Below are positions 34,039 through 55,266 of a stretch of 64,000 nt of DNA, one piece after another. This DNA is from Methanolacinia paynteri. GTDB lineage: Archaea > Halobacteriota > Methanomicrobia > Methanomicrobiales > Methanomicrobiaceae. The DNA lies in NCBI RefSeq assembly GCF_000784355.1, contig NZ_KN360926.1:1-64000 (forward strand), read 5' to 3'. Within the stretch, counting starts at the first letter, position 1. The number at the start of each line of letters is the position of its first letter. Both the position numbers and the translations under genes were made by a program. Below the pieces are notes generated by a model. The model was given only the letters and a program-made list of their open reading frames with translations. It did not search any database and was not told where the DNA came from.

Positions 34039-34431
34039 TTTTATGAATTTGTTAATATTTACTATAAAAATCTGGATCCTGATCCTTTAGATTTCCTTGC
34101 CCTAACCCCTAACTTTTTGGCTTTTTGCTGTCTCATATCTTTCTCCGGCGACCCCGGGCACCCACGGCCAAAGGCCGGTGGACGGCCCCTACCTGGGGGC
34201 CTTGCCTTAAGATAACCATCTCATTGCACGCTCAGGGGACCGGCAAGGGTCCTCTGAACTGTTTAATTTAGCTTTGTTTGGAAATCCGGAGACTTTTAGA
34301 TCTCTCGTTTTGATTCCAACAAGTTTTGTAGATTTTCATCGGTTTTTGTATGATGAAATCGCACATCATGGGCGTTTTATATCAATATTTTTAATGACTG
34401 GCATATTTGCTGATCAACAAAAATTTAAAAA
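34039..34431. other. intergenic region between TIGR00300 gene and RaSEA
   Basis: 393 bp between convergent genes. It holds the partial hairpin element (34147-34263). The rest is AT-rich without a convincing gene. A box-C-like ATGATGA occurs at about 34349, but no complete C/D RNA could be built. Confidence 0.5.
34147..34263 (-). repeat. partial third copy of hairpin-rich element (3' segment)
   Basis: A 117-bp GC-rich segment that matches, on the minus strand, the 3' half of the elements at 48315-48627 and 54521-54850: a stem around GGACC-CTTGCC-GGTCC, the GGCCCC/GGGGCC hairpin, and a CCAC...GTGG hairpin. Several differences from the other copies keep pairing. The 5' half and promoter are missing here. 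It sits between the TIGR00300 gene and RaSEA. Confidence 0.75.
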
Positions 34432-36598: not shown

Positions 36599-36682
36599 GC
36601 CGAGATAGTCTAGTCCGGGAAGGCGGTGGCCTTGAAAGCCACTGGTGTTTGCACCTCGGGAGTTCAAATCTCTCTCTCGGCG
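36599..36682 (+). tRNA. tRNA-Ser (anticodon UGA)
   Basis: An 84-nt class II tRNA. The acceptor stem GCCGAGA pairs with TCTCGGC, with discriminator G. The anticodon stem GTGGC/GCCAC encloses loop CTTGAAA, giving anticodon TGA (serine). The long variable arm (TGGTGTTTGCACC) and T-loop TTCAAAT are present. CCA is not encoded. AT-rich TTTAATTAAT about 20 bp upstream is the likely TATA element; a T-run follows. Confidence 0.95.
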
Positions 36683-45793: not shown

Positions 45794-47086
45794 ATGGTTA
45801 TGAAAATACTTGTCGTGGGTGGCGGCGGAAGAGAACATGCAATAGTATCGGCATTATCCCGCAACAGCGACGCAGAGATATATTCGGTGATGTCAAAGAG
45901 GAATCCGGGTATCGAAAGTCTTTCGGAAAGAATTTTGATCGCAAAAGAGACGGACGTTTCGTCCGTAGTCCGGTTTGCCGAATCCGTAGGGGCCCGGTAT
46001 GCGGTAATCGGACCCGAGGCGCCGCTTGAGGCAGGCATTGCGGATTCCCTTGAAGAGAAGGGGATCGGGTGTTTCGGGCCGGGAAGAGCGGCGGCACGTC
46101 TTGAAACCGACAAGGGCTTCTGCAGGGAGATGATGGAGAAGCACGGTGTTGCCGGCTGTCCCCACTACAGGATATTTAATAATACGGATGATGCGTGCGA
46201 TTTCGTCATGGATTATGACGGCGATCTCGCCATTAAACCCGTCGGCCTGACCGGAGGCAAGGGCGTAAAGATAATGGGGGAGCATTTCGATAAGGAAGGA
46301 GCCGTAGAATATATAAAAACTCTTTCCGGGGGCGTTGTTCTTGAAGAGCGCCTTATAGGGGAAGAATTTACCCTTATGGCCTTTGTCGACGGCATAAATC
46401 TTGTTCCGATGCCCCTGGTCCAGGATCACAAGAGAGCATTCAATGGTGATGTCGGACCCAATACCGGCGGCATGGGCTCATATTCGATGCCCGATCATAT
46501 GCTGCCGTTCGTAACCGGTGATGACTATCAACGTGCTCTTGAGATAATGAAGGACACTGTGGCGATGATGGCCGAAGAGGGGCATGTATATAAGGGAATT
46601 TTATACGGCCAGTTCATGAATACATCCGAAGGCCCCAAGGTTATTGAATTCAATGCGAGATTCGGCGACCCTGAAGCGATGAACGTCCTGACACTGCTGT
46701 CATCCGATTTCACGGAGATCGTGGAAGCTGTGGTGAACGGAACGCTGGATGAATGCGACGTCACATTCAGGAAGATGGCTACGGTATGCAAGTACCTCGT
46801 TCCCGAAGGATACCCCGAAAACCCGACTGCCGGGGACCCTTTCTTCATTAAAGATCAGGGAGACGCCTACCTGTATTATGCAAATGTGCTTGAAGAGGAC
46901 GAACGCCTGTACACCCAGACTTCAAGGACTCTCGCCTTCGTCGGGATGGCCGAAACCCTGCAGGAGGCGGAAGCAATTGCAGAGAAGGCCGCCGGATCGG
47001 TTAAGGGCGCCGTAAGATACAGGAAGGATATCGGGACCGATGAAGTCCTCCAAAAGAGAATCGCACATATGAAGGAGATCAGATGA
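45794..47086 (+). CDS. purD: phosphoribosylamine--glycine ligase PurD
   Basis: A 430-residue ATP-grasp enzyme. [13 protein letters not shown] opens it, then [22 protein letters not shown] and [11 protein letters not shown]. It makes GAR in purine synthesis. ATGs at 45794 and 45800 are both possible; 45794 is 5 bases after GGTGA, and 45800 gives the common MKILVVGGG start. It overlaps argF by 4 bases. Confidence 0.95.
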
Positions 47087-48018
47087 AAAAGGACATCCTG
47101 TCGATCCTGGATTTAAACAGCGAAGAACTTACCGGAGTACTTGCCCTTGCGGATAAACTTAAGGGCGAGAGAAAGAACGGGATCTTCCCGGAGTATCTGT
47201 ACAAAAAATCCGTCGGGCTGATATTCGAGAAGGCATCGACCCGGACGAGAATCTCATTTGAAACCGGAATATTCGAACTCGGCGGCCACCCGCTGTTTTT
47301 GAATCCGAACGACATGCAGCTCGGAAGAGGCGAGACGATCTCCGATACTGCAAAAGTCCTGTCAAGATATCTTTCGGCGATAATGATGAGATCGTACAGC
47401 CACAGGACTGTTGAAGAACTTGCCCTTCATTCGACGATACCTGTCATCAACGGCCTCTCGGACGAGGAGCACCCCTGCCAGATCCTCGCAGACATAATGA
47501 CGATGCGGGAGAATTTCGGGAATAACCTGGAGGATCTTACGATCGCATGGATCGGGGACGGAAATAACGTCTGCAACTCCCTGATGCTCTCGTCTGCCCT
47601 GACAGGATACAGGGTAAATGTAGCAAGTCCGCCTGCTTACGGGCCGAAGGAGAAGTACATCGGACTCGCTGAAAAAGTGGGTGCACACGTGAAATTTTTC
47701 GATAATCCGCGGGACGCCGTAAGCGGAGCGGACGTGATCTATACCGACACCTGGATCTCGATGGGTCGTGAGAATGAAAAAGAGGCCCGCATTAATGCAT
47801 TTAAAGGATACAAGGTGGACGGATCTCTCCTGGCTGAATGTGATAAGGATTCGATCGTCCTCCACTGCCTTCCTGCCCACAGGGGGGAGGAGATCTCCGA
47901 CGATGTTATCGACGGCCCGATGAGCAGGGTATGGGACCAGGCGGAAAACAGGCTTCATGCACAAAAGGCTCTTCTCGCAAAATTGTTGGGCGACGATATC
48001 AGTCAAGAAGTTTCATAA
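47083..48018 (+). CDS. argF: ornithine carbamoyltransferase ArgF
   Basis: A 311-residue transcarbamoylase. The carbamoyl-phosphate motif [20 protein letters not shown], and the ornithine-binding [11 protein letters not shown] are all present; the last separates it from aspartate transcarbamoylase. It produces citrulline; argG, the next enzyme, lies at 58.8 kb. Coupled to purD by the ATGA overlap. Its 3' end overlaps the convergent small gene by 20 bp. Confidence 0.95.
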
Positions 48019-48277
48019 AATCGATTATCTTTTCTCCGTCTCCGGATCTTGATCCTTCAATATGAAGGATCATCTCCTCGATAATTTCATTATTTGATTT
48101 CGGTTTGTCCCCTGCGAGTATGCTTTCAAGGGCACGCATCTGGAATATCTTGTGCTGCAGTCTTGAATCTTTATATCCAACAACAGCAACGAAGGAGTTG
48201 CATTTTTTATCGAATGTAATCGAGAGGATGTTATCCACGTTGATGTAGCTTCCTTCGAGAGACTTTATCCAGACCAT
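47999..48277 (-). CDS. uncharacterised 92-residue protein
   Basis: Not recognised. A soluble protein with a beta-rich start (WIKSLEGSYINVDNILSITFDKK, reminiscent of small bacterial-type fragments that sense nucleotides or bind nucleic acid) and a helical end (NNEIIEEMILHIEG). Convergent with argF. It has an ATG start and clean frame; a TATA-like sequence is present in the 30 bp before it. Confidence 0.5.
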   Translation of the reverse strand: MVWIKSLEGSYINVDNILSITFDKKCNSFVAVVGYKDSRLQHKIFQMRALESILAGDKPKSNNEIIEEMILHIEGSRSGDGEKIIDFMKLLD

Positions 48278-48314
48278 GATTAATATTATGTAAATTCGGA
48301 TTATGTTTTTTTTG

Positions 48315-48627
48315 GCTCTTCGTTAATCTGCGTGGGTATAAAAGCAAGTTTCACTACTTTTGGCAACCCCTCGCCGCGAACCGCACAGCAGGTTCGCGGA
48401 TCGGCCCCGACCTCGGGGCCTCTCAATTGTGACAGGCCGCACAGGGGATAGACAAGTATCCCATGAGCGGCGAGATGCGGTAAACTCCATAGTGTGAACT
48501 GAATATGTCAAAAACAGCTTAGGGGACCCTCGTCGGTCCCCTGAGCGTGCCGTGAGATGGCTATCTTAAGGCAAGGCCCCTGGGTAGGGGCCGTCCGGCG
48601 GCTTAGCCGCCGGTGCCGGGGTCGCCC
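48315..48627 (+). ncRNA. hairpin-rich repeated element, copy 1: candidate structured RNA
   Basis: A 313-bp element with an inverted near-copy at 54521-54850. TATAAAA at 48337-48343 is about 25 bp before the conserved body starting near 48362. Stems in order: CCGCGAACC/GGTTCGCGG (48374-48399), GGCCCCG/CGGGGCC (48403-48420), CCGC..GATA/TATC..GCGG (48437-48470), GCTTAGGGGACC/GGTCCCCTGAGC (48517-48546), GGCCCC/GGGGCC (about 48575-48592) and CCGGCGGC/GCCGCCGG (about 48594-48612). Copies differ by several substitutions that preserve pairing. No protein-coding frame is shared. Function unknown; a mobile hairpin element is the main alternative. Confidence 0.65.
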
Positions 48628-48752
48628 GTGTAAGGTATAGTAAGGTATGTAAGCAATATGGCAGTGCTATGAATGTAATATCCGAACTTATGTGAAGATG
48701 AGGAAATGCTTTGCATTTCCGGACTCCGAACACATTTTTTTATTCTGATCTT

Positions 48753-49007
48753 TTAGTTTTCGTCTTCACCGATAAATTTATTCAGTTCGGCCATCATGTA
48801 GTCCTGGACCTGAATCGCCACATCCTTTTTGCACCTGAAGGCAAGAAGATTACGGACATCCCCGTCCATGTTTGCATATTTTAACGGACGCTGGCGGGAT
48901 ACGACTTCGACATCGAATTTATTCGAGATATCGACAATAATTGATCTCGGGACTCCCGGGGGTACGATTACATCATATAATTTCTCACTTGCTTCGGATT
49001 CGCTCAT
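48753..49007 (-). CDS. small protein downstream of methanogenesis marker 14 gene
   Basis: An 84-residue acidic soluble protein (VIVPPGVPRSIIVDISNKFD, LKYANMDGDVRNLLAFRCKKD). It follows the marker-14-like gene by 13 bp on the same strand. No known domain recognised. The single Cys and the compact alpha/beta pattern suggest a small regulatory or chaperone-like partner. Its conservation with marker 14 across methanogens would test a shared role. Confidence 0.65.
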   Translation of the reverse strand: MSESEASEKLYDVIVPPGVPRSIIVDISNKFDVEVVSRQRPLKYANMDGDVRNLLAFRCKKDVAIQVQDYMMAELNKFIGEDEN

Positions 49008-49020
49008 TAATATAACTCCA

Positions 49021-50511
49021 TTACTTTCCTATCTTCATCCGGCGACTCATGATGCACGGCCCGCCCCTGACACCGCCGATCGGATCGTTCGGTTTTCCGA
49101 GAGAGCACATGCAGCGGCCCATAAGAGCGGCGCCTCTTGCAAGACCGTCATCTACAAAGATCACGTGCTTGTAGGGATCTTCGAAAAATCCCCTCTCTTC
49201 GATGCCGTTCATGATATATGTCGGCTTGAAGCCGGAAATTGCCGCCCTTCCCGTAAAACCTATGGATGTATTGGGGAGGATCAGGCCTTTTTCATTTGCG
49301 ACATCGACAAGACGAAGGGCCATGCCGGCACATACGTGATCGATGACCTGGGTCATTATGCCGATGCCGTGTTTCTTATATATTTCTGCGCCGATTGTCT
49401 TTAAATCCTCTTCTCCGCTAAAATCTTTACCGCAGTCGCACCCGATCATCGCTATTCCCGATTCCATGGCAAGGTCTGCGCATACAGGGACTTTACCGAA
49501 TCTCGTCCTGTCGGGAGGAACGATCCTGATGTCTATAAGATCGTGGATCCTCTCTTCGTATTCGGATACCGTCTTTGTCTTCTTCAGCGATAATGAGGAT
49601 TTGATGCTCTTGTCCCCGAAGAGATCCAGAGCCGTTCCTGTTCCTTCCTTTACCTTGCCTGTACCTCTTATGATCGCATCGGGAATTGCTCCTGCAAGGC
49701 CGCAGAAATTTCCGATTGTCTTTGCAAATGGATAAGGATCGTCAGGGGATACGTCGCTTGTTATCCTTCCGTCAAGTGTAGTTCCGAAGTCGATGGATAC
49801 ACAGGGATTCCTGAAATCGACAGGCGTCCACTTGGCTCCTTCTTTGATGCCCGCCATTGCAAGTTCGCCCTCCATCTCGTTTGCGACCATCTCTACACCC
49901 GAAGAGCCTATAGGGGGCGAAACACCGGCGACAGTTCCGCAGAACGTGAGTTTGTCCGCAAAACTGAACTCCCTGAGTTTCGGCGGAAGGTTCTCCTTGC
50001 TCATGGGGGGGGTCATCTTCTTCGGGGGAACGCCCGCCTCCAGGCAGCCGTTTGCGAGTGCGATGACGAAATCGCCGACCTGTTCGGGTTTGTCCATCGC
50101 CGCAACGACACCCGTACTTCTCACGACAAAGTCGAGATCCTCCTTCACGGACAGTTTTGCTTCCTTGTGGCACTGAAGAAGAGTGTCCCGGACCAGTTCG
50201 GTTACGGATTCCCTTGATATCGGAGTTCCGACGAGTGTCTCCCCGAATACCTCTTCGCCGGGTTTTGGGGGCCTGACATCGCGGCTCATGCTGACGGTTT
50301 TATTGATAATATATGTCCTGCCCGTCTCGAGGTTGGTCCCGGTCAGTATGCATTTCGTGGTGGTATTTCCCATTTCGACGGATGCGACAATAAAGTAGGG
50401 TTTCGTGAGATATTCGGGAACCCTCATCCCTGCCCCCTGCCCTACCACGGGGGGAGGGGGGCTTTCAACGATATTGGGAGTTTTCCTTTTGAAAGAAAAG
50501 AGTGCACACAT
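49021..50511 (-). CDS. methanogenesis marker protein 14 family (ASKHA-type ATPase-like)
   Basis: A 496-residue protein of the conserved methanogen marker 14 family (family assignment by recall). ATPase-fold motifs of the activator/reductase type are seen: VEMGNTTTKCILTG (phosphate 1 loop), SIDFGTTLDGRIT, and late VDDGLARGAALMGR. This resembles proteins that reactivate corrinoid or nickel enzymes with ATP, so a role in maintaining a methanogenesis enzyme is plausible but unproven. Its N-terminal 30 residues are Pro-rich and look unstructured; the start could lie at Met29 (MRVPEYLTKP). Confidence 0.75.
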   Translation of the reverse strand: MCALFSFKRKTPNIVESPPPPVVGQGAGMRVPEYLTKPYFIVASVEMGNTTTKCILTGTNLETGRTYIINKTVSMSRDVRPPKPGEEVFGETLVGTPISRESVTELVRDTLLQCHKEAKLSVKEDLDFVVRSTGVVAAMDKPEQVGDFVIALANGCLEAGVPPKKMTPPMSKENLPPKLREFSFADKLTFCGTVAGVSPPIGSSGVEMVANEMEGELAMAGIKEGAKWTPVDFRNPCVSIDFGTTLDGRITSDVSPDDPYPFAKTIGNFCGLAGAIPDAIIRGTGKVKEGTGTALDLFGDKSIKSSLSLKKTKTVSEYEERIHDLIDIRIVPPDRTRFGKVPVCADLAMESGIAMIGCDCGKDFSGEEDLKTIGAEIYKKHGIGIMTQVIDHVCAGMALRLVDVANEKGLILPNTSIGFTGRAAISGFKPTYIMNGIEERGFFEDPYKHVIFVDDGLARGAALMGRCMCSLGKPNDPIGGVRGGPCIMSRRMKIGK

Positions 50512-51001
50512 ATCTAATCGATTATTTTTTTCAGGATTAAATCTTTTGTTTTCTCTAAATTGTTCAGATTTATCCTCTCAAAAATTCTACGTTTTGTTAA
50601 TTCGCAGATACTGATCTCTGTAATGGATATATTCCTGCAGGATACTTCAGGTTAAAAAAAAAGAACAGGTGCGAATCCTGTTTACCAAAAATAATCCTGA
50701 ATTAATGTTTTTATGTTGTTCTTTTTATTTACACCAATATATATGAATTAACTTCCCGGTTAAATGACTGATTTTTTTTAATTATTTCATATAAATGCCA
50801 CATTCATGAAATACTATCTGAGTATTGCTGCCTGTGATCGTCTCAATTTACGACTCACAATCAAAACAGACCCAATCCCCCAATAAACAGACACCATCGT
50901 TTCACCATTGGAAAATGCTTCAGGCAGCAGTACCGCAATAATATTTCCTGGAAGATTCTTCATTCAATTTTCAGGATTCTTAAGAATCAAAGGTATGTAA
51001 A
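50512..51001. other. divergent intergenic region upstream of ABC transporter
   Basis: 490 bp between the marker-14 gene (-) and the ABC ATPase (+). AT-rich. It holds a hairpin AACAGG/CCTGTT (50664-50682) and a perfect 14-bp palindrome GATTCTTAAGAATC at 50975-50988, 13 bp before the ABC start codon. No open frame of note. Confidence 0.5.
50975..50988. promoter_or_regulatory. 14-bp palindrome before the ABC transporter operon
   Basis: GATTCTTAAGAATC is a perfect dyad directly upstream of the SD-like AAAGGT and ATG (51002). Its position in the leader fits an operator for a dimeric repressor; no regulator gene is adjacent, and the role is inferred. Confidence 0.4.
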
Positions 51002-51922
51002 ATGATAGAATTTAAAAATCTGGTCAAAACCTACGGTAAAATTAACGCTGTAGACAATCTCTCCATAAAAATAGATAAAGGGGAGGTATTTGGTCTCCTT
51101 GGCCCGAACGGTGCGGGAAAAAGTACTACTATCCTGATGCTGTGCGGGCTTATTCAGCCGACTTCGGGAGAATGCTATATCGACGGGACGGAAGTCTCGA
51201 GAAATCCCATCGAAGTAAAGAGAAGAATCGGCTATATGCCTGAAGATGTCGGGTTTTATCCCAACCTTTCGGCCGAACAGAACCTGGAATTTTTCTCCAA
51301 GCTATACAATATTCCCGAAAAGGAGAGAAGGACAAGGACAGACGAACTCCTTGAACTCGTAGGATTATCCGGTGTTGAGAAGAAGGTCGGCGGGTACTCG
51401 AAGGGAATGCGCCAGCGGCTGGGGATTGCCAAGGCGCTGATCAATGATCCCGATGTGGTCATTCTTGACGAACCGACGGCCAATCTCGATCCGCAGGGAG
51501 TTTCCGATTACCGCAAGATCATCAGGAATATTTCAGGCTCGGATAAGACGGTTCTCGTATCTTCGCATATTCTCTCGGAGGTCAGCAAAGTCTGTTCGAG
51601 GGTCGGGATCATGCAGAAGGGAAGGATAATAAAAGACGGGTCCTGGGACGAACTTGCGAGAAACCTGGATCTTTTAGGTCTGCCCGAGATAATTATCAAT
51701 GTCGAGACCGCGTCCGGGATGCCCGAACTTGTTCATGACGATATCATCAGGGTTGATTATTCCGGGGGAATGACCAAGGCGAAGATTATCGCTTCATGCG
51801 ATATCAGGACCGACATAGGCAGAATCCTGATCGAGAACAGGATCGTTCCGAGGGAGATCGCACTTGATGCCATAACAATGGAAGACGCCGTTCTTTCGTA
51901 CTACAACGAGGTGAACAGCTGA
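51002..51922 (+). CDS. ABC transporter ATP-binding protein
   Basis: A 306-residue nucleotide-binding subunit. Walker A GPNGAGKST, signature GGYSKGMRQRLG, Walker B VVILDEPTANLD and switch VSSHIL are all intact. A C-terminal extension of about 80 residues resembles CcmA/NatA-type exporters. It forms a complex with the downstream permease (1-bp gap). Substrate unknown; NosF/NatA-like systems include peptide and Na+ exporters. Confidence 0.92.
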   Translation: MIEFKNLVKTYGKINAVDNLSIKIDKGEVFGLLGPNGAGKSTTILMLCGLIQPTSGECYIDGTEVSRNPIEVKRRIGYMPEDVGFYPNLSAEQNLEFFSKLYNIPEKERRTRTDELLELVGLSGVEKKVGGYSKGMRQRLGIAKALINDPDVVILDEPTANLDPQGVSDYRKIIRNISGSDKTVLVSSHILSEVSKVCSRVGIMQKGRIIKDGSWDELARNLDLLGLPEIIINVETASGMPELVHDDIIRVDYSGGMTKAKIIASCDIRTDIGRILIENRIVPREIALDAITMEDAVLSYYNEVNS

Positions 51923-51923
51923 T

Positions 51924-53030
51924 ATGAAATCCGTTGGACTTTTTGCAATAACAGAAAAGGAATTCCAGGATCATACCCACAGCAGAAAATTCCTGATGTT
52001 CCTTTCGATCATCCTTGTCGTAACGATCATAGGGATGGCTTCCGGATCTGTGGACTATAACAAGCAGATCGACGATTATAACGAACAGGTCAGCGTGGTC
52101 GATGAGAATTCTGAGACGGATTCGTATTGGTACAAGCCGTCGATAATGACGATCTTCAATAGTGTGGGAGCTCTTCTTGCATCCCTGGGAGCCATACTCG
52201 GAATCGCCATGGGATTCGACCTGATTACGAAGGAAAAAGAGAGTAAATCGCTCAAAATCCTGTTGTCTCACCCGATATACCGCGATGAAGTCATAAACGG
52301 AAAAGCCGCGGGCGGAATTCTTGCATTGCTGCTAGCTTTATTCGTAACTTTTATTATTGCAGCAGGCATCATGCTGATCTTCGGGATAGTTCCTTCGGGC
52401 GAAGATTTCATATACATAGCCTTCTTCGGGCTTGCAGCGTTTTTGATGATCTTTTCATACTTCGCCATCTCCATGTTCATGTCAACGGTTGCAGAAGACA
52501 GCGGCAATTCTCTTGTTTATACTCTTATCCTCTTCGTCTTCCTTTCGAGTCTCCTGCCGGTTTTTGTCTGGAGTTCGACGACCGACCTCATTATCGGACC
52601 TGCACCCGAATACCCGGAAGGATACTTCGATATTGACTACGGTTTCAACGGGGCAGCGGTTACGATGACCGTAAGTGATACCGGAGAAGTGACGAAAACC
52701 GAAAATGCGTATGTAAAAGAGGAGGATGAGGCCTGGGAGAAATACATGGATGAAATGGAAGAATATTGGGGTAAAAGAGAGATGTTGTCGGGCTTCATCA
52801 GCCTTCTTTCGCCGACCAACAATTTCCAGGATATCATGAATACGCTGACATATTCGAGCAGCGGCTTTGACGACCTCCTGAGGTCTTCTTATTCTCCTGC
52901 GGATAAAGAGAGTGCCGGTGTTATGGATGTTCTCGGGAAACTCTTGTGGAACTTCGTTGCCCTGATCGCAATTCCGGCAGTATTCTTCGGTGCGGCATAT
53001 GTCCGTTTCATGAGGATTGACGTGAGGTGA
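51924..53030 (+). CDS. ABC-2 type permease
   Basis: A 368-residue membrane subunit with about six helices: helix 1 at residues 20-38 (FLMFLSIILVVTIIGMASG), then an external loop, four central helices (about 80-230) and a final helix near the C-terminus. The LITKEKESKSLKILLSHPIYRDEVINGK motif is typical of ABC-2/NosY permeases. A long extracytoplasmic domain lies between helices 5 and 6. Operon with the ATPase and the NEW3 protein. Confidence 0.88.
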   Translation: MKSVGLFAITEKEFQDHTHSRKFLMFLSIILVVTIIGMASGSVDYNKQIDDYNEQVSVVDENSETDSYWYKPSIMTIFNSVGALLASLGAILGIAMGFDLITKEKESKSLKILLSHPIYRDEVINGKAAGGILALLLALFVTFIIAAGIMLIFGIVPSGEDFIYIAFFGLAAFLMIFSYFAISMFMSTVAEDSGNSLVYTLILFVFLSSLLPVFVWSSTTDLIIGPAPEYPEGYFDIDYGFNGAAVTMTVSDTGEVTKTENAYVKEEDEAWEKYMDEMEEYWGKREMLSGFISLLSPTNNFQDIMNTLTYSSSGFDDLLRSSYSPADKESAGVMDVLGKLLWNFVALIAIPAVFFGAAYVRFMRIDVR

Positions 53031-53032
53031 AA

Positions 53033-54478
53033 ATGACGGGAATTAATCAAAAATTGCTGAACTGTTTATTGGCATCGGCATTTTTAATCCTGCTTCTCTT
53101 ACCGCAGGGAGTTTTTGCATCAGACAATGCAACCCCCAATGTAGAGATTATATGCAGTTTTCCCGGGAGGATCGTTGAAGCCGGTGAAACGGTAAAGTTC
53201 GACCTGAAAATAAAGAACAACTACGGCACATATCCAAAGATGCTCGATGTGGATACGTTTAAAGGAGAGAACGACTGGAAGTTTGCTTTTTACTCCGGCG
53301 AAAATAAAATCGACCGTGTTTTAATGGGAAAAGGCGAGGAGTTAGCAGTTACCCTTGAAGTAGATACGGCAGGCGACACTCCTGTAGATACATATCCGGT
53401 AAGAATCCGGATCGACGACGCACGGCTGTGGATTTATATCAAAATCGAAAAAACACATGCCGGAGAGTCCGGCGTCCTTAAGGTTACGGTTGTCGACGAA
53501 CAGGGAGAAAAGATAAAAGGCGCAGTGGTGAAGGTTGTCGATGACAGAATGCATAACATCGTAAAAGAGGTCCTTACAACCGCAGACGGGCAGATCCGGA
53601 CCGAAGTCGATCAGGGGGATTATATTCTTAATATCGAAAGCAGCGGTTATATCGGTTCTCAAAAGGACGATATAGCGATAAAAAGCGGCTACACCACCGA
53701 CGCCGGAACAATAATGCTCGAGAAGAAAAACTACGGGCTGACCATAGACGTTAAATCCCCGCTTGTGACGGCAACCATCGGAAACAAGCCGGTATATGAA
53801 ATACTGTTGTCTAATGTCGGAAAAAGCGACGATATATTCGATCTCGGTGTCGAGGGTCTTCCTGCAGGATGGTACGGGAGATTTAAACTTGCATCGAGTT
53901 CGAACGAAAGCGCATCGAGTCTCTATATTGACGCAGGTTCTGAAAAAACCGTCTTCCTCGAGATCATTCCCCCGTATTCCGTGGAGAAGGGAGATTACTC
54001 TTTCAATATCTCGGTAAATTCGTCGGATAACAGTTATACAGAAAAGCTCGAGGCAAAGATTACAGGCAGCAGCAACATGGTTGTATTCTCCGAGAAATAC
54101 CGTTATGAGATCACAAAGGGTGACACGGCGGAAATTTCGATGTCGATATCGAACAAGGGAAGCGGCGAAGCGCTGACCAATGTAAGAGTCGAAGTCTCGG
54201 CACCTGACGGATGGAATGTCCGGACGACACCTTCTACGATCCCGTCCATACAGCCGGGTCAAAAAGCGGTCGTCAATCTCAAGGTCACTCCGCCTGCAAA
54301 CATCGCCGCCTCGGATTACAAGATCTCCGTTAAGGTCATCTCCGACCAGGAAGAAGATACCGAGGATATTAAGATTATAGTGAGCGAGAGTTCGCTCGTC
54401 GGAATATTAGGCGTGCTGCTTCTAGCGGGAGCATGTTTCGGGGTATATTATTACTTCAGAAAACACGAGAGAAGATAG
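53033..54478 (+). CDS. surface-exposed protein with NEW3-type and carboxypeptidase-regulatory-like domains
   Basis: A 481-residue exported protein: signal peptide (about residues 1-30), then an Ig-like NEW3 type domain, a carboxypeptidase-regulatory-like domain (GVLKVTVVDEQGEKIKGAVV, TADGQIRTEV), two further NEW3-like domains, and a C-terminal membrane helix ending YYFRKHERR. The NEW3 fold is known from extracellular and ABC-linked proteins. It belongs to the ABC operon, overlapping the permease frame end by none and starting 2 bp later, so it is likely an external partner of that exporter. Confidence 0.8.
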   Translation: MTGINQKLLNCLLASAFLILLLLPQGVFASDNATPNVEIICSFPGRIVEAGETVKFDLKIKNNYGTYPKMLDVDTFKGENDWKFAFYSGENKIDRVLMGKGEELAVTLEVDTAGDTPVDTYPVRIRIDDARLWIYIKIEKTHAGESGVLKVTVVDEQGEKIKGAVVKVVDDRMHNIVKEVLTTADGQIRTEVDQGDYILNIESSGYIGSQKDDIAIKSGYTTDAGTIMLEKKNYGLTIDVKSPLVTATIGNKPVYEILLSNVGKSDDIFDLGVEGLPAGWYGRFKLASSSNESASSLYIDAGSEKTVFLEIIPPYSVEKGDYSFNISVNSSDNSYTEKLEAKITGSSNMVVFSEKYRYEITKGDTAEISMSISNKGSGEALTNVRVEVSAPDGWNVRTTPSTIPSIQPGQKAVVNLKVTPPANIAASDYKISVKVISDQEEDTEDIKIIVSESSLVGILGVLLLAGACFGVYYYFRKHERR

Positions 54479-55266
54479 AATTGATCTATGGCACTGCTGT
54501 ATTTTTTTCAAATATTAGCTGGGCAACCCCGGCACCGGCGGCCAGGTCCGCCGGACGGCCCCTGCCCAGGGGCCTTGCCTTAAGATATTTCTCTCACGGC
54601 ACGCTTAGGGGACCGGCAAGGGTCCCCTAAGCTGTTGAATTTGTTTTTTTAAACATATTAAGTGCCGTAAACACCTTGAATTTACCGCATCTCGCCGCAC
54701 AGGGGATACTTGTCTATCCCCTGAGCGGCCTGTCACAATTGAGAGGCCCCGGGGTCGGGGCCGATCCGTGAGCCTGCTGTGCGGCTCGCGGCGAGGGGTT
54801 GGCAATGAAGTGAGACCTGCATTTATACCCACATAGATTAACGAAGAGCTGATCTTTTTTTCATTTTTTTAATGAAAGCCGGATTACAGGTTTTTTGAAT
54901 ATGATCCCCCAGTATATCATGATCACTTTTTGTAACAGAATGTATGCCTGAAAACCCGTAATCCGGGCTTATTCCGCTCTTTTTTATGCGTGTTTCCTGG
55001 GTCTAAAATAAATCTCGCCAATTTGTGGATATTTAGCTGTTTAAAGGCCGGATCGTATCGATATAGCGGCACGTATTTGTCCTGTTTTTTTCAGACGATA
55101 TTTATACCCGGCAGGCAGGAGATCGTGGAACACAGGGCTTCTGTGTGGATTTTGAAAATCAGGTTTTTCGCAGGATTTAGGGTTTATTTAAGTTTTACTT
55201 TACAATCCGGCCATCATTAAAAGAACCGGCCGCAGGGAAAAATATGGAGGAACTGTATATCCCTCT
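54479..55266. other. long intergenic region with repeated element and distant inverted repeat
   Basis: 788 bp between convergent genes. It contains element copy 2 (54521-54850, minus). Beyond it, CCGGATTAC at 54879-54887 and GTAATCCGG at 54958-54966 form an inverted repeat with a 70-bp loop, a possible hairpin. The rest is AT-rich with no convincing gene. Confidence 0.55.
54521..54850 (-). ncRNA. hairpin-rich repeated element, copy 2: candidate structured RNA
   Basis: Minus-strand near-copy of the element at 48315-48627, with the same order of stems and TATAAAT at 54821-54827 (minus strand). Relative to copy 1, the A-T pair in the first stem becomes G-C (GAGCC/GGCTC against GAACC/GGTTC), and the T-G wobble in the fourth stem becomes T-A. 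The first stem has one new C-A mismatch, so not every change is neutral. The stretch between the two halves (54632-54690) is poorly conserved. Confidence 0.65.

Follow-up and report, generated by a model that had tools for sequence, protein, structure and literature searches.

Copies of the repeat in the Methanolacinia paynteri window

The DNA analysed, here called the window, is a 64,000-nt stretch of Methanolacinia paynteri (genome G000, 2.79 Mb in 46 contigs; contig NZ_KN360926.1, positions 1 to 64,000), and the element in question is a repeat of which the window holds two full copies and one partial copy. Copy 1 (48314..48734, + strand) lies between two same-direction genes beside methanogenesis marker 14. 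Copy 2 (54490..54849, - strand) separates the final gene of an ABC-transporter cluster from a kinase-like gene of opposite direction, and the partial copy (34119..34265, - strand) has an ornithine cyclodeaminase gene on one side and, on the other, an archaeosine-synthesis gene that runs the opposite way. A previous reading of the letters alone, the initial annotation, had described inverted full copies and a further partial copy of a hairpin RNA. The inverted relationship was borne out by BLAST, which aligned 54521-54849 (-) with 48315-48627 (+) at 85% over the entire 313-base query. The limits that had been set for copies 1 and 2 were narrower than those given above, which are themselves approximate. 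The open reading frames (ORFs) inside the window copies are of 62-75 aa only.

The conserved part of the element is a core, which in copy 1 is closed by GGCAACCCC and GGGGTCGCC and lies at 48362..48626 (+; profile match 1-283, E 4.7e-80); the core of copy 2 is at 54522..54803 (-; profile match 3-283 at 54801-54522, E 1.2e-90), and in other copies it is mostly 240-295 bp. Each core has six strong hairpins, hpA-hpC to the left and hpD-hpF to the right of a variable spacer. In copy 1 these are hpA (48374-48399), hpB (48403-48420) and hpC (48436-48471) in the left arm, and hpD (48517-48546), hpE (48575-48592) and hpF (48595-48613) in the right arm (48511..48626, +), which scored 139.8 bits with the right-arm covariance model R1. 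A model built from right arms alone matches the left arms end to end on the opposite strand in copies 1 and 2 and in many other cores (copy 1, 48362..48474, - strand, R1, E 9.5e-8; copy 2, 54691-54804, plus strand, E 7.8e-9). It follows that the core consists of a single kind of arm, about 115 nt long and with three hairpins, present twice as an inverted dimer. The six hairpins of the initial annotation are therefore present, but the unit is two inverted three-hairpin arms rather than one body. Loops had been called variable, and among them those of hpC (GACRAG) and hpD (CTYGCC) are strongly conserved. Single right arms exist too, and the partial copy at 34.1 kb is one of them (34147-34265, -; R1, 100.1 bits, E 3.9e-23).

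A first extraction pattern gave four cores only; a second gave 65 candidates, and the alignment took in 55 and later 54 of these. Profile hits numbered 165, of which 88 span 215 columns or more; identity to the consensus passes 60% in 76 and 75% in 64, the last 12 rows removed being of 60-65% identity and mostly opposite-strand self-matches. RNAalifold gave a poor structure on the raw alignment because of rows with deletions, and the structure was therefore drawn by hand and then tested.

Transposon ends, target duplications and an empty site

Copy 1 begins with a left terminal inverted repeat, GGCTCTTCGTTAATCTGCGTGGGTA (48314..48338, +; direct reading), to be compared with GGCTCTTCGCTAAATCCTGTGGGTGA, an ISL3 left end in a related genome (G007); its right terminal repeat is not recognisable. 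By eye, the T-runs TTTTTTTT/TTTTTTTA that flank copy 1 were taken as its target duplication, and the flanks of copy 2, TGATCTAT (54482-54489) and TGATCTTT (54850-54857), as a duplication matching at 7/8. The partial copy has a degenerate terminal repeat, GGCTTTTTGCTGTCTCAT (34119-34136, -). In the family at large, intact ends start with GGCTCTTCGCTAATCTGTGTGGGTA and finish with TACCCACATGAAACAGCGAAGAGCC, or with degenerate forms of these. Both ends were located in 15 copies of 306-490 bp, and the flanking 8-mers match at seven or eight positions in seven of the 15 (361-490 bp) versus 4 of 210 mismatched pairings. The duplication is exact in three of the seven. Two of the seven, C46:15139 and G001:997658 (G001 being Methanolacinia petrolearia), are orthologues, so the seven copies mark six insertions.

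An empty site was found at copy 1, the one locus at which emptiness was examined. Window positions 47005-48311 and 48735-50000 match the adjoining stretches 1341250-1342557 and 1342554-1343818 of G001, the insertion being present in G000 and absent from G001. The sites of copy 2 and the partial copy are occupied in G001 as well, the former at G001:1348467 and the latter by a full-length core at G001:1328443. When 38 blocks of G000 around BLAST-found copies were compared with G001, 27 matched a copy-holding stretch (at least 550 bp) and 11 matched none. Judged by their ends and duplications, the elements are ISL3-type miniature inverted-repeat transposable elements (MITEs).

The use of GGCTCTT ends and 8-bp duplications as marks of ISL3 was confirmed on the ISL3 copies of relatives. 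ISL3 transposases or fragments were found in six of 60 surveyed genomes. Genome G007 (L124, L129, L131) has near-identical ISL3 copies with ends GGCTCTTCGCTAAATCCTGTGGGTGA and ACCCACATAAAACAGCGAGGAGCC, and exact 8-bp duplications in both copies with two readable boundaries; G012 (L123), of the same genus as G007, has a similar ISL3 element with its own exact 8-bp duplication. The two genomes, whose ISL3 transposases are 414-415 aa, represent one other genus of the family to which Methanolacinia belongs. Like ISL3 insertion sequences and their derived MITEs, the Methanolacinia repeat has terminal inverted repeats, GGCTCTTCGCTAATC... and ...CCCACATGAAACAGCGAAGAGCC, and like the ISL3 elements of G007 and G012 it has 8-bp AT-rich target duplications. 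Unlike ISL3 insertion sequences, it has no internal transposase, and its interior is a conserved palindromic core in which no transposase-gene remnant was recognised; the ISL3 transposase domain, PF01610, was undetected in G000 and in G001. The G007 and G012 elements are possible relatives of the missing partner transposon.

Both full copies have a TATA box some 25 bp ahead of the core, as the initial annotation had said: direct reading places TATAAAAG at 48337..48344 (+), before the core start at 48362, and TATAAATG at 54827-54820 (-), before the core start at 54803. These boxes would suit a dedicated noncoding RNA (ncRNA) gene family of about 280 nt with its own TATA promoter, closed by a GGCAACCCC/GGGGTYGCC stem and carried by transposons. 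In the family, however, a TATA box 10-40 nt upstream accompanies only 18 of 61 cores (by a text search that leaves degenerate boxes uncounted, one of the 61 rows being an opposite-strand artefact), and in ISL3-type copies, copy 1 included, the transposon end has the box at its inner border. The existence of single arms and tandem arrays, and the inversion of some orthologous cores, likewise argue against such a gene. The initial annotation had itself named the terminal repeats of a transposon as a finding that would count against its RNA. Because ISL3-type ends, 8-bp duplications and the copy 1 empty site were found, a dedicated RNA gene is not supported, and we consider it quite unlikely.

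Copy number and distribution

Collection of the genomic copies by BLAST, which the initial annotation had proposed, gave far more than the three copies it described, namely 53 pieces of the 313-bp query in G000, and the same query gave 54 in G001. A deeper search of G000 with the right-arm covariance model gave at least 93 matches, at least 54 of them with E below 1e-20, and a search with stricter filters gave at least 58 each in G000 and G001; these counts are lower bounds, 61 (stricter filters) or 150 candidates having been scored per genome. Among the other 58 genomes the stricter search matched only G002 and G017, once and weakly in either case, and a DNA search of all 60 genomes, M. paynteri's own included, gave matches in four, namely G000, G001 and, weakly, G002 and G009. 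Thus, among the surveyed genomes, the family seems confined to the two Methanolacinia species. A search of relatives had also been suggested, and of these M. petrolearia holds a similar number of copies, with only weak matches elsewhere.

The BLAST-found copies in G001 C1 span 0.499-2.297 Mb of the 2.84-Mb record, and the model search adds one at 2,484,548. Tandem arrays occur on contig C39 of G000 and at 1.68-1.70 Mb of G001 C1 (1680000-1696000). These arrays hold two to five cores or arms, mostly with a linker instead of the ISL3-type left flank. Cores were found with at least two unrelated left flanks.

Genomic context and inversion of cores

Of 77 gaps that hold an element, 42 lie between convergent genes, orthologous sites of the two species being counted separately; among 89 control gaps the figure is 12 (p about 2e-8). 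When G000 is taken by itself, 26 of its 40 element gaps are convergent. The control gaps, of at least 50 bp, were taken from the window and from seven 20-kb stretches of G001. Gene orientation came from a crude ORF caller, which calls copy 2 tandem despite its family-supported convergent neighbours. A first control drawn from element flanks (9/92 convergent) was dropped because the gap that adjoins a convergent pair is never a convergent one.

The element occurs in both orientations, and comparison of 23 orthologous pairs showed five whose core lies the other way round with respect to the flanking DNA. The inverted-in-place cores, all at conserved intergenic sites, are those at C43:91652, C30:102363, C41:182092, C44:140389 and C7:33807 of G000 and their G001 counterparts. 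The pair C41:182092 and G001:1037235 is consistent with the entire element having been inverted inside a single duplication site. At two loci, C43:91652 with G001:1663858 and C30:102363 with G001:779168, the same flank abuts the inverted core. Taken with the unrelated left flanks, the latter two loci raise the idea that the core is an invertible or mobile cassette that recombines at its GGCAACC/GGGTTGCC ends, with the ISL3 ends as only one vehicle. The same data are fitted by independent insertion into the same gap or by exchange between copies, which can explain some of the inversions, and the C41 pair is best read as a whole-element event; the recombinase families sought were ISL3 and Y1 only. 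A cassette of this kind is, in our estimation, very unlikely.

Conservation of the stems

The initial annotation had proposed an RNA under structural selection and had quoted three sets of substitutions between the copies that keep pairing; all three were confirmed. In arm alignments A1 and A2, made of 40 arms each from the 50 and 54 that were available, 97.7% of stem cells are paired in the right arm and 93.9% in the left. Two-sided pair changes were seen in 9 of 30 pairs of the right arm versus a shuffled mean of 2.8, and in 10 of 31 pairs of the left arm versus a shuffled mean of 3.9; in both arms the observed number was above every one of 500 shuffles. The stems also change more slowly, with 2.63 inferred substitutions per column versus 6.17 in other columns (64 cores). 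The final rate comparison between species used 12 of the 23 orthologous pairs, five with inverted cores and six with partial or deleted cores being omitted. In these 12 colinear pairs, 138 of 1753 stem sites differ versus 248 of 1542 sites in the rest of the core, and the stems are the slower part in 11 of the 12; with all 23 pairs pooled, the differences are 15.8% in stems and 24.6% in the rest of the core. With a tree-based null, 3 of 74 pairs have E < 0.05 (a single pair in each of hpD, hpA and hpF) in a covariation test modelled on R-scape, though not R-scape proper, that drew on 40 simulated alignments. In sum, the structure is kept, modestly but consistently, so the hairpins may still be of use to the host. 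The proportion of paired stem cells, the covariation in three hairpins and the retention of stems in orthologous copies are points in favour of a dedicated ncRNA gene. Of the earlier proposal, then, the keeping of stems by compensatory change is supported, and the dedicated RNA gene is not.

Strand preference of the arms

Selection on a single plus-strand RNA is expected to make G.U wobble pairs exceed A.C mismatches in both arms. The wobble events in hpD-hpF were 33 G.U versus 7 A.C, and those in hpA-hpC were 21 G.U versus 50 A.C; the doubtful small stem hpS2b and the closing stem (5 G.U versus 17 A.C) were excluded from these sums. Folding of whole arms gave a similar picture, with the minus strand folding better in 44 of 60 left arms and the plus strand in 58 of 63 right arms. 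The wobble bias was seen in every gene context. That the wobble of hpA and hpC favours the other strand is a further point against an ncRNA gene. As these counts and foldings read, the favoured strand is the outward-reading strand of one homologous arm unit in both arms, and it is the same in both because the arms are homologous.

The flip of the bias between arms also bears on the idea that the core is a DNA-level palindrome, a BIME-like cruciform or protein-binding site with no RNA function, its stems kept by DNA recognition and gene conversion. The two-fold symmetry, the inversions in place, the tandem arrays, the presence of both orientations and the tolerance of A.C mismatches in one arm would all be in keeping with a site of this kind. 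A strand bias that flips between the arms is not predicted by it, though a mutational bias could yield one. We regard the DNA-level palindrome as possible but doubtful.

Interpretation

We think it probable that the repeats are a family of small non-autonomous ISL3-type MITEs that carry a core like the repetitive extragenic palindromic (REP) sequences and bacterial interspersed mosaic elements (BIMEs), with arms that fold in read-through transcripts. An ISL3 transposase acting in trans, undetected in both genomes today, most likely mobilised the MITEs. Their cargo is the extragenic palindromic core, two inverted three-hairpin arms around a variable spacer, and this core would act as a REP/BIME repeat and not as a self-promoted RNA gene. 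The arms would be part of transcripts that read through from neighbouring genes, in which the outward-reading strand of either arm would fold into a stable 3'-end hairpin cluster that may stabilise or end mRNAs.

Several observations weigh against this reading. The covariation is modest, and unpaired columns score as high; the initial annotation had called for a covariation test, and although two-sided changes exceed all shuffles, no pair, structural or not, is significant after correction over all column pairs. In the wobble counts, hpB alone, a left-arm hairpin, has 5 G.U versus 2 A.C, hpS2b in the right arm has 15 G.U versus 20 A.C, and hpA and hpC, taken singly, show no excess of cases in which the minus strand is the stabler one. 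The wobble bias may also be mutational in origin. The bias is present beside tandem and divergent genes too, so it is not tied to convergent read-through. The enrichment in convergent gaps, besides its separate counting of orthologous sites, may be mere selection against insertion into promoters. Eight of the 15 copies with both ends fall short of seven matching positions in the duplication test, and since ISL3 ends are not recognisable in many copies, the core may have another way of spreading as well. Lastly, we infer both the transcription of the arms and any role that they have at 3' ends, and the arms may today be RNA 3'-end modules, DNA sites or palindromes that only persist selfishly.

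A more specific idea, which we hold to be unlikely, is that the core is a two-fold symmetric, transposon-spread 3'-end module in which each arm works mainly on its outward strand. If so, a single insertion into a convergent gap would supply the read-through transcript of either gene with a hairpin cluster that protects or terminates it, and an ISL3 MITE would have become, by domestication in an archaeon, a bidirectional 3'-untranslated-region element. The opposite wobble bias of the arms makes a simple prediction for 3'-end mapping, and if the prediction were borne out the family would show, as a model case, how a MITE is domesticated to regulate gene ends.

Relation to known repeats and RNA families

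As the initial annotation had supposed, no known RNA family was recognised. At curated cut-offs Rfam gave nothing in the whole window but a tRNA at 36599-36682, and under permissive settings the best match of the element in the copy 1 region was a weak one with the family RF04311 (22.9 bits versus a cut-off of 45, E 0.21). Literature searches, whose coverage left out most subscription papers, found no paper describing the Methanolacinia repeat.

The repeat looks like an archaeal counterpart of REPs, BIMEs and REP doublets forming hairpins (REPINs), with ISL3 ends and without a detectable Y1 partner. REPINs resemble it in having two inverted palindromic units with a variable spacer, in existing also as singlets, in being intergenic and in having many copies (PMC3116915). 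They differ in having one short palindrome where the Methanolacinia arms are of about 115 nt with three hairpins. The Methanolacinia repeat has ISL3 ends, and no Y1 (RAYT-type) transposase (PF01797) was detected at E <= 0.001 in either G000 or G001. For GTAG/CGTC-tagged REPs and BIMEs, the published description gives intergenic positions, chiefly between convergent and unidirectional genes, reads the GT pairs in REP stems as a sign of RNA function and proposes transcribed RNA elements (PMC3733652). The Methanolacinia repeat shares the preference for convergent genes and the GT pairs in stems, but it is larger, archaeal and has ISL3 target duplications. Its large arms and many copies in two species suffice to ask by sequence whether it is at the RNA or at the DNA level that such repeats are preserved.

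The exact 19-nt hairpin C pattern, GGGGATAGACRAGTATCCC, was found in five contigs of a contig collection from which M. paynteri's own genome and near ones may have been left out, and in no viral contig. Four of the five, L118, L119, L120 and L122 from metagenome-assembled genomes, are labelled archaeal (one Methanospirillum, one Euryarchaeota and two Methanoregulaceae), with the pattern in other sequence contexts; the fifth, a Flavobacteria contig, was judged a coincidence. A loop-binding factor common to the carriers of hairpin C is conceivable. None of the four archaeal loci is counted as a family member: L119, L120 and L122 share a different low-copy repeat, to which the genome of L118 has no match.

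Another repeat replaces or adjoins the left arm before some right arms, and the family is therefore a mosaic of several modules. At window positions 34290-34400 another repeated stretch, ..CATGATGTGCGATTTCATCATACAAAAACC.., precedes the right arm, and a similar stretch is present in L091.

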